Made by a program: the position numbers and the translations under genes. From Mesorhizobium sp. (GTDB lineage: Bacteria > Pseudomonadota > Alphaproteobacteria > Rhizobiales > Rhizobiaceae): a stretch of DNA of 64,000 nucleotides. This document shows positions 19,534 through 48,524 of the stretch, piece by piece. The notes beneath the pieces were generated by a model. That model was not told the origin of the DNA, searched no databases, and saw nothing but the letters and a program-made list of their open reading frames with translations. The DNA is taken from the NCBI RefSeq assembly GCF_004962245.1, contig NZ_SUHQ01000020.1, positions 62,001 through 126,000 on the forward strand. The letters run 5' to 3'. The stretch's first letter is position 1, and each line of letters opens with the position of its first letter.

Positions 19534-19581
19534 GCGCATGATCCTTTCCGAAATTCGATTCCGATTTTCGGGGTCATGCGC
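19534..19581. repeat. Palindromic intergenic repeat, TTTCCGAAA type (copy 1)
   Basis: The terminal arms GCGCATG and CATGCGC enclose CCTTTCCGAAATTCG and GATTTTCGGGG. It belongs to the same family as the elements at 27909-27957 and 38734-38782, sharing the core TTTCCGAAAnncGgnTTCC. The rest of the region from 19582 to 19743 holds a plausible TTGACC (19647) and a CATACC 17 bases later, then a strong AAGGGAGG ribosome-binding site before the TRAP gene. Confidence 0.75.
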
Positions 19582-27908: not shown

Positions 27909-27957
27909 GATCCATGATCTTTTCCGAAAACCGGATTCCGCTTTTCGGGATCATGAT
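27909..27957. repeat. Palindromic intergenic repeat, TTTTCCGAAAACCGG type (copy 2)
   Basis: GATCCATGATC and GATCATGATC arms flank the CTTTTCCGAAAACCGG and CCGCTTTTCGGG core. It lies immediately upstream of the LacI gene and its 3' border touches the ribosome-binding region of that gene. Same family as 19534-19581 and 38734-38782. Confidence 0.85.
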
Positions 27958-38733: not shown

Positions 38734-38782
38734 CCATGGTCTTTTCCGAAAACCGGTTTTCCATTTTTCGGGATCAAGGTCC
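38734..38782. repeat. Palindromic intergenic repeat, TTTTCCGAAAACCGG type (copy 3)
   Basis: ACCATGGTCTTTTCCGAAAACCGG and CCATTTTTCGGGATCAAGGT form an imperfect hairpin. Third copy in the window of the family at 19534-19581 and 27909-27957. It lies downstream of the ligase gene. Confidence 0.85.
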
Positions 38783-47441: not shown

Positions 47442-48440
47442 TCAGCCGGCCATTGCCTTGCCACGAGGGGCGGGGTGCGGAGCGGCTGATGCGACGGCGT
47501 TGGTGACCAGCGCCGTCATGATCTCGGCCGCCGCCAAGGTCGCAATCACTTGCGGACGCTTGTCCTTGACGGCATCGCCGCCGATCGGTGAGACGAGGCG
47601 AGCAAATTCCGCCTCGCTGCCGCCCGCCGACTTCAGGAACCAGTTCCTGAACGTCGCCTTTTTCGTCTTCGAGCCGATCATGCCGACATAGGCAGCATCC
47701 CGGCGTTTCAGTGCCTCGGCGACGATCAGGAAATCCAGCGCGTGGTCGTGGGTGAGGATGACGAAGGCGGCCCCCGCTGGAGCCTTGCGCACAACCGCCT
47801 CTGGCATCGGCGTCAGACAGGTTTCGACAGTGTTCGGCATGCCCTCCAGCGCCTCCGCCCGCGTCTCGACGACGACGACATGCACCGGCAGCAGGGCAAC
47901 CGCCGACGCAAGCGCCTGGCCGACATGGCCGCCGCCGAAGATGTAGACATGAGGCAGCTGCGCCTCCTCGGCTTCCGCGGCAGCAACCAACGCTTGCGCC
48001 AGCGTCGCATCAACCAGCCGGATTAGCACCTCGACCCTGCCGCCGCAGCACTGGCCGATCTCTGGCCCGAGCGGAATGTCGAGAGTGGCGCTGACATCCC
48101 TCCCCCTCGCGGGGAGGGTGGTGGCGAAGCCGGCGGGTGGGGTCGCCGCGGCAGTGCTCAACATTTTCTTAGGTCGCGTGCTTCCTCTACCGACCCCCTC
48201 TGACCGCTTCGCGGCCATCTCCCCCTCAAGGGGGGAGAAAAGGAGCTGCCGGGCCTTGTCGATCGCCATGTATTCGAGTTGGCCGCCGCCGATCGTACCA
48301 AAAATCGCCGAGCCCGAGACGAGCATGAAAGCGCCCGTCTCGCGCGGCGTCGAGCCCTTGGTCGCCGCCACTTCGACCAGCGCGAGGCGGCCATGGCCAG
48401 CAAGGAAGTCCTTCAGGCTTTGCACGTTCGAGGTCATCAT
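47442..48440 (-). CDS. xdhC: Xanthine dehydrogenase accessory protein XdhC, with repeat-element insertion
   Basis: A 332-residue protein that binds molybdenum cofactor and loads its sulfurated form into xanthine dehydrogenase. The N-terminal domain shows ATKGSTPRETGAFMLV and TIGGGQLEY. The C-terminal Rossmann domain shows VYIFGGGHVGQALASAV and YVGMIGSKTKKATF. Residues 68-114 are foreign: they are encoded by the inverted-repeat element at 48098-48237, in frame, between KARQLL and the conserved SATLDIPLGPEIGQCCGG. Without them the length would be about 285 residues, normal for the family. The ATG at 48440 or 48437 is likely. It is the last gene of uraH-xdhA-xdhB-xdhC. Whether the protein still works is not known. 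Confidence 0.92.
   Translation of the reverse strand: MMTSNVQSLKDFLAGHGRLALVEVAATKGSTPRETGAFMLVSGSAIFGTIGGGQLEYMAIDKARQLLFSPLEGEMAAKRSEGVGRGSTRPKKMLSTAAATPPAGFATTLPARGRDVSATLDIPLGPEIGQCCGGRVEVLIRLVDATLAQALVAAAEAEEAQLPHVYIFGGGHVGQALASAVALLPVHVVVVETRAEALEGMPNTVETCLTPMPEAVVRKAPAGAAFVILTHDHALDFLIVAEALKRRDAAYVGMIGSKTKKATFRNWFLKSAGGSEAEFARLVSPIGGDAVKDKRPQVIATLAAAEIMTALVTNAVASAAPHPAPRGKAMAG
48098..48237. repeat. 140-bp inverted-repeat element inserted inside xdhC
   Basis: The left end CCCTCCCCCTCGCGGGGAGG, with GGTGGTGGCGAAGCCGGCG and GGTGGGGTCG after it, is matched in inverse orientation at the right end by CGACCCCCTC, GACCGCTTCGCGG and CATCTCCCCCTCAAGG. Each end is thus a palindrome plus a second stem, as in the element at 33060-33205. 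In the reading frame of xdhC it contributes about 47 codons without a stop. It encodes no transposase. Confidence 0.88.
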
Positions 48441-48524
48441 TCGCATTCCCAAGTGGGAAATATAGAGTTTTCCGGCAGAAATTGCACGCTTGCCCGTCTC
48501 TGGGTCCCGACTCTGGGGCCTGAT

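Follow-up and report, generated by a model that had tools for sequence, protein, structure and literature searches.

The xdhC gene of Mesorhizobium sp. carries, in the linker between its two domains, a palindromic repeat element that leaves the reading frame open, and throughout this genus the XdhC linker is a landing site common to several families of such elements, with swaps, nested pieces and scars, a property which the original prediction, made on this stretch of DNA, had overlooked. Repeats enter, change and leave the linker with the frame unbroken. The reading that we favour, with a probability of roughly 0.87, is that permissive linkers receive non-autonomous palindromic repeats, which are then translated as loops, and that the copies in frame are the ones kept by selection. 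A repeat made of two inverted hairpin arms around a short spacer would enter the XdhC linker, insertions breaking the frame would be purged, and those which are in frame and open would survive in permissive linkers. The segment would then be translated as about 47 extra, probably disordered residues, as its frame and openness suggest.

The window, i.e. the whole stretch of 64,000 nucleotides that was analyzed, contains xdhC on its minus strand (Table 1), and this ORF has a single match in its own genome at E<=1e-20. Two Pfam domains were recognized in the protein, XdhC_CoxI at residues 19-71 and XdhC_C, a Rossmann domain, at residues 169-311. The element, which we call type A, corresponds to residues 72-119 counted from the TTG or 68-115 counted from the ATG at residue 5, and its limits are CCCTCCCC CTCGC GGGGAGGG at the 48098 end and TCTCCCCC TCAAG GGGGGAGA at the 48238 end. 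From either end inwards it has an outer palindrome and then a second stem, with a spacer in the middle. The xdhC ORF stays open through its 141 bp, a length divisible by three, so that the earlier claim of a reading frame continuing through the insertion is correct. The ends had also been described as inverse complements of each other; an inverted pair of arms is indeed present, but the two 44-nt arms are just 73% complementary and the ends are therefore approximate, not exact, inverse complements. The RNA fold of the element exceeds that of shuffled sequences (z -2.76, 0 of 200 shuffles).

Table 1. Location of xdhC and of the parts of its type A element in the window.
Feature	Position	Strand	Remarks
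xdhC ORF	47442..48452	minus	336 aa from TTG; ATGs at residues 3, 5 and 6
Type A palindromic repeat element	48098..48238	minus	141 bp, 47 codons, in frame, in the linker between XdhC_CoxI and the Rossmann domain
Gene-5' arm, outer palindrome	48218..48238	minus	TCTCCCCCTCAAGGGGGGAGA on the plus strand; within the codons for FSPLEGEM on the coding strand
Gene-5' arm (palindrome and second stem)	48191..48234	minus	inverted repeat partner of 48102-48145
Inter-arm spacer	48146..48190	minus	
Gene-3' arm	48102..48145	minus	73% complementary to the 5' arm; peptide reading TPPAGFATTLPARGR
Gene-3' arm, outer palindrome	48098..48118	minus	CCCTCCCCCTCGCGGGGAGGG on the plus strand

In its own genome (6.9 Mb in 122 contigs) the type A element has at least 74 matches at E<=10, itself included, a lower bound because 40 of the 86 first-look candidates were scored. 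Many of these matches are inverted pairs of arms about 110 bp apart, and since matches count arms the elements are fewer than the matches. The ends thus recur in the genome, and together with the open 47-codon element this is in accordance with what had been predicted, namely that a palindromic repeat with dispersed copies had entered a conserved gene without disturbing its frame. Within the window a direct-repeat search found no second copy of type A, and a scan with four palindrome patterns found only the two of the xdhC element. A known Rfam family was considered for the element and dropped, the permissive Rfam search having given only matches below the gathering score, for example to miRNA families. 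No match to a Y1 transposase (IS200/IS605-type) was found in the own genome, which is among the 66 without one of the 81 genomes of the genus searched, the other 15 having a match. No clear or consistent target-site duplication was seen by eye at the glyS sites and at the ends of intergenic copies, in an inspection of sequences other than exact pairs of empty and filled sister sites; at glyS sites 1 and 2 the insertion takes the place of a few residues.

An XdhC match was present in all 146 genomes of the genus. We read 148 xdhC loci and used the 142, from 140 genomes, in which both halves were present; left out were G122 and six loci of five genomes cut at contig ends (L183, L186, L189, L191, L257 and L258), and such cuts are the pattern expected if the linker repeat breaks short-read assemblies. 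The length of the linker, measured from KARQL to ATLD, ranges from 24 to 255 nt, and in 141 of the 142 it is divisible by three with no stop inside, the remaining linker (L240) containing a run of N. An element is present in 78 linkers, 77 of which are stop-free multiples of three, the other being the one with the N run. Linkers were classified by motif, with three rows moved by hand, into A (53), B (16), C (8), D (1) and none (64), the last being defined as a linker of at most 75 nt and including apparent scars of A or B (e.g. L207 and L208) as well as two second copies of xdhC (L203 and L256). Class A is made up of 42 plain linkers, eight with an extra piece, two with a nested second arm and one fragment. 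The insertion idea was to be abandoned if most relatives held the same segment, which is not the case, since type A is found in 53 of the 142 loci, other element types in 25 and no element in 64. That very different in-frame peptides are tolerated in the linker is our reason for regarding it as a landing and exchange site, and such tolerance would be why it keeps repeats.

Types A, B and C are dispersed repeats. The B linker used as a query gave 97 matches in G029, 21 in G084 and five in the own genome (G000), and the C linker, among the matches listed, 74 in G094, 53 in G074 and 53 in the own genome, with full-length C copies up to 92% identical. The extra piece found in some class A linkers (A') had 10 matches in G011 and one in the own genome, while in G038 it matched only itself. 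Type D, represented by one row and classed solely from its paired palindromes, is a putative repeat. The outgroups Aquamicrobium, Pseudaminobacter and M. alhagi have short XdhC linkers. In a further named set, paired palindromes were seen by eye in eight of the nine longer linkers inspected (L101, L106, L107, L113, L115, L116, L124 and L127, with L120 as the one without); these putative repeats come from Aminobacter, Corticibacterium, Mesorhizobium and MAGs.

Selection was compared between the insert and the rest of the gene in 742 of the 861 pairs among the 42 plain class A rows. The two XdhC domains are under purifying selection, with dN/dS of 0.16 and 0.17, as against 0.75 in the insert, which indicates that the genes bearing the insert were kept functional and that the insert itself is hardly held at the protein level. 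Synonymous divergence was compared as well: dS is 0.196 in the insert and 0.53 and 0.59 in the domains, so the DNA of the insert is less diverged than neutral inheritance predicts, and old neutral inheritance is insufficient to explain it without recent exchange, homogenization or a constraint on the hairpin. The coding register has no stops in the 34 plain type A rows compared, which are of four lengths; the next register has one per length group and the third 10 to 14 per group, and on the opposite strand one register is open in all 34. The absence of stops is by itself weak evidence, and it is the multiples of three that carry the argument. An AlphaFold2 model made from a 50-row alignment has a mean pLDDT of 77.6, with 157 of 335 residues at 90 or more, and its best Foldseek matches are the XdhC relatives 3on5 and 2we8. 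Residues 75-119, located between a core helix and a core strand, have pLDDT below 50, so that the insert is predicted as a low-confidence coil.

To follow the history of the linker classes a quick maximum-likelihood tree of 142 rows was used, built from XdhC and the C-terminus of XdhB with the linker excluded. Element class turns over on this gene tree. At least 51 changes are required to place the five classes, compared with a mean of 62.9 after shuffling, and none of the 200 shuffles gave so low a number. This minimum is not a count of events, since support is weak for 54 of the 139 inner branches and the branches of two rows are long; the well-supported branches require class A to have changed at least 13 times and classes B and C at least seven times each. 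Similarity of the flanks hardly predicts the element class over 140 of the 142 rows (ANOSIM R -0.001, 0.048 and 0.018; p 0.448, 0.072 and 0.260). For the A, B and C rows alone there is a weak tie with the C domain (R 0.150 and 0.165, p 0.006 and 0.004), the N domain giving R 0.073 and p 0.110. Within plain class A the distances of inserts and flanks are modestly correlated (Mantel r 0.24-0.33, p 0.001), with r of 0.49 and 0.54 between the flanks themselves.

It could be argued from this partly vertical history, and from type A being the commonest element, that the insert is an ancestral functional segment of XdhC which was lost in some lineages and from which the repeats elsewhere were derived. 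We regard this as very improbable, because unrelated repeat types occupy the same place, the outgroups have short linkers, the repeats are present at many other places and there is little constraint on the insert at the protein level. A more serious question is whether the alternation of element types comes mainly from recombination of xdhC alleles between species instead of from repeated insertion, to which we give slightly less than even odds. Over all rows the class has almost no relation to the flanking gene, the dS of the insert is low, and one asymmetric arm pair, seen by eye, is common to the type A copies, which makes a single origin with subsequent inheritance and exchange the likeliest history of type A. 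On the other hand B and C each entered at least once (as did D, provided that it is a repeat), nested pieces represent additional entries, similar elements occur at this place in Aminobacter and Corticibacterium, and within class A the insert distances still track those of the flanks. The history of the linker would accordingly include one lineage of type A and separate entries of B, C and probably D, with nested additions and in-frame deletions that leave scars also shaping it; B, C, perhaps D, and the nested pieces are further entries into the linker.

Elements in frame are not restricted to xdhC. Coding context was judged with a simple codon score at genomic places among those listed, 39 of 40 for type A and 27 of 32 for type C; 14 frames were translated and five, picked by eye, were searched against Pfam, so that the remaining copies may include genic ones. 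A-type elements lie in frame within conserved genes of the own genome, namely xdhC, a NasA-like reductase, hydantoinase A, CobG and GlyS, and Pfam domains were found in the ORFs of NasA-like, hydantoinase A, CobG, GlyS and FtsY. FtsY is the one gene picked for a C-type element in frame (L297, own genome C39:91345-91421), situated before the helical bundle domain and read in the same register as in the XdhC of other species. In the genome G087 two A-type elements are in frame in CobN (L413) and one in an N-terminal extension of UvrB (L409), and these ORFs have Pfam domains too. Stop-free in-frame copies are thus present in several unrelated conserved genes. The sites in XdhC, GlyS site 3 and NasA-like lie between Pfam domains, and the hydantoinase A copy is close to the start of a domain.

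GlyS is a single and essential enzyme. A-type elements were found in it at three sites, in 5, 16 and 8 of the 50 loci read; these loci were drawn from 61 genomes searched and the fractions are biased upward because 20 of them were taken for their broken matches. Four scars were found at site 3 and one at site 2 (L316), a different element is present in L376, and sites 1 and 3, which have common flanking residues, may not be independent. In CobG a tail-outward A element is present in all 30 loci read, the best 30 of the 60 matching genomes (61 searched), and in all 30 the reading frame continues across the element without a stop over the whole matched length of the gene. Stops inside CobG matches were considered as frame breaks and rejected, since they fall outside the gene. 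The CobG match of G087 consists of two pieces with a gap at the position of the element and seems to be without it.

The arms are conserved as DNA. In CobG (30 loci) their pS is 0.075 and 0.124, compared with 0.557 and 0.402 in the 330 nt on either side, and the spacer is near saturation, on an unreliable alignment. In XdhC the plain class A arms have pS of 0.108 (33 of 42 rows) and 0.064 (37 of 42 rows), compared with 0.38-0.41 in the domains. Homogenization with other copies, recent exchange or a constraint on the hairpin would each produce such low divergence. The last of these could mean that a hairpin in the mRNA at a domain boundary is selected, for example as a translation pause, and that repeats are kept for RNA structure, as suggested by the synonymous divergence of the arms, which is lower than that of the surrounding gene by a factor of about three to seven, and by those element sites which lie between Pfam domains. 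We find this improbable, since 64 of the 142 XdhC loci are without an element and the hydantoinase A copy is not between domains, while homogenization with other genomic copies explains the low divergence equally well and linkers are also where insertions are best tolerated. Even less credence, and slightly less than for an ancestral segment, is given to the idea that the segment is absent from the final protein, being cut from the RNA or skipped by the ribosome. The strong RNA fold and the conservation of the arms as DNA would suit it, yet removal or skipping would not require a frame, and 141 of 142 linkers are in frame and stop-free across lengths of 24-255 nt.

The register in which the arms are read was scored by hand in ten translated A sites (xdhC, hydantoinase A, UvrB, GlyS 1-3, CobG, two in CobN and NasA-like). 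Each of the ten has one arm or both arms translated as (I)SPLxGEM or in the ISPxRGE register, and at eight of them both arms are in the preferred register, the exceptions being NasA-like and one CobN copy. Among 33 copies of the own genome and G087 not counted as in-gene (one of which, L287, is inside a long ORF) both arms are in this register in seven (Fisher p 0.0013, or 0.0031 without GlyS site 1), an excess that is suggestive only, because in-gene sites were found by their openness and the G087 copies are the loci of the best-scoring of 123 matches. Divided by orientation, the excess is weaker, both arms being in the preferred register in 6/6 translated against 5/12 not-in-gene copies that are head-outward (p 0.038) and in 2/4 against 2/21 that are tail-outward (p 0.11). 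Copies were located with a looser unit pattern, the strict one having found too few; it misses diverged arms, among them xdhC, hydantoinase A and UvrB, for which reason these were scored by hand. The earlier proposal of one frame that is always open in the element finds no support in that form, since 23 of the 33 not-in-gene copies are open from the register of the first arm and only the seven have both arms in the preferred one. Most arm registers appear open by eye unless the loop spells TGA, and stop avoidance alone does not seem to explain the preference. The preferred register of translated copies looks suggestively like the outcome of selection on insertions and not like something inherent in each copy.

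Protein-coding palindromes have been recognized in Rickettsia, in Wolbachia and in some further bacteria, and those of Rickettsia (RPE) and Wolbachia were reportedly described by Ogata, Claverie and colleagues. Type A is, as RPEs are, a dispersed palindromic repeat of about 100-150 bp, and the repeats described here, about 105-150 bp long, are likewise in frame inside conserved protein genes; the likeness to the Rickettsia palindromes which had been proposed for xdhC is therefore a real one in behaviour, and in-frame copies in other genes extend it. According to two reports, R. conorii has 44 RPE integrations, with nearly half of the RPEs within ORFs (PMC10969869), and RPEs are present in 19 reading frames, a guanylate kinase with one of them being translated and active (PMC2229807). 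Unlike RPEs, the repeats here are GC-rich and are likened to them by behaviour, not by sequence family; one linker is common to several unrelated families, with swaps and scars across the genus, and the host, Mesorhizobium, is a free-living genus with large genomes. Intragenic GTAG/CGTC REPs are a second comparison: single repeats and pairs lie wholly in ORFs, including uvrB of R. conorii, REPs occur in tRNA synthetases of three species, and recB of two Xanthomonas species has different REPs at about the same site (PMC3733652). In accordance with these examples uvrB and a tRNA synthetase are targets here too, but no GTAG or CGTC tag was recognized by eye in the A units and, in contrast to REP/REPIN systems with RAYT, the own genome is without a Y1 transposase match. 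RIME elements are paired palindromes of similar size. They are named among rhizobial intergenic repeats in one report (PMC2573895), are likened to ours by description and not by sequence, and differ in being intergenic, whereas the copies here are in frame in genes. The MITEs Correia/NEMIS, ERIC and RU-1 to RU-3 are small elements with inverted terminal repeats, some of which carry ORFs fusing in frame to genes (PMC2229807). A-type elements also have terminal inverted repeats, but differ from MITEs in that no target-site duplication was seen and no parent transposase was found (Y1 family searched).

In the literature searched, which mostly did not extend to subscription papers, we recognized no report of in-frame palindromes in Mesorhizobium or other rhizobia. 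Protein-coding palindromes are a known kind of element; what seems to be new is how much turnover there is at one linker, together with the preferred register and arms conserved as DNA. Dozens of natural alleles of one linker (no insert, several kinds of insert, nested inserts and scars) are available in a genus that is widespread and culturable, GlyS with elements at three sites adds to this natural test material, and the old question of whether mobile repeats are a source of new protein segments becomes directly testable in soil bacteria. For annotation it is a warning that some of the differences in length among these proteins come from inserted repeats and not from new domains. We also consider, as a rather doubtful extension, that register-compatible and nearly identical arms make the linkers of core proteins (XdhC, GlyS, CobG, CobN, FtsY) exchange sites that receive copied repeats again and again, at which arm peptides would evolve in concert through exchange of DNA and hairpins may act as translation pauses.

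Several other observations were made along with these. In one GlyS locus without an A element (L344, from G085) the C-terminal part is in another frame than the first part, which is either a real break or a sequencing error. GlyS also has a second hypervariable site, after FLNALFG and before IADLLAFFHDRL (L316-L345), where a segment of 7 to 82 residues is very different between species and does not have the look of a palindromic repeat. A 34-nt dispersed repeat is found three times in the window (19536-19569, 27912-27945 and 38734-38767), two of its copies being close to CCATGATCTTTTCCGAAAACCGG and the third 68% alike.
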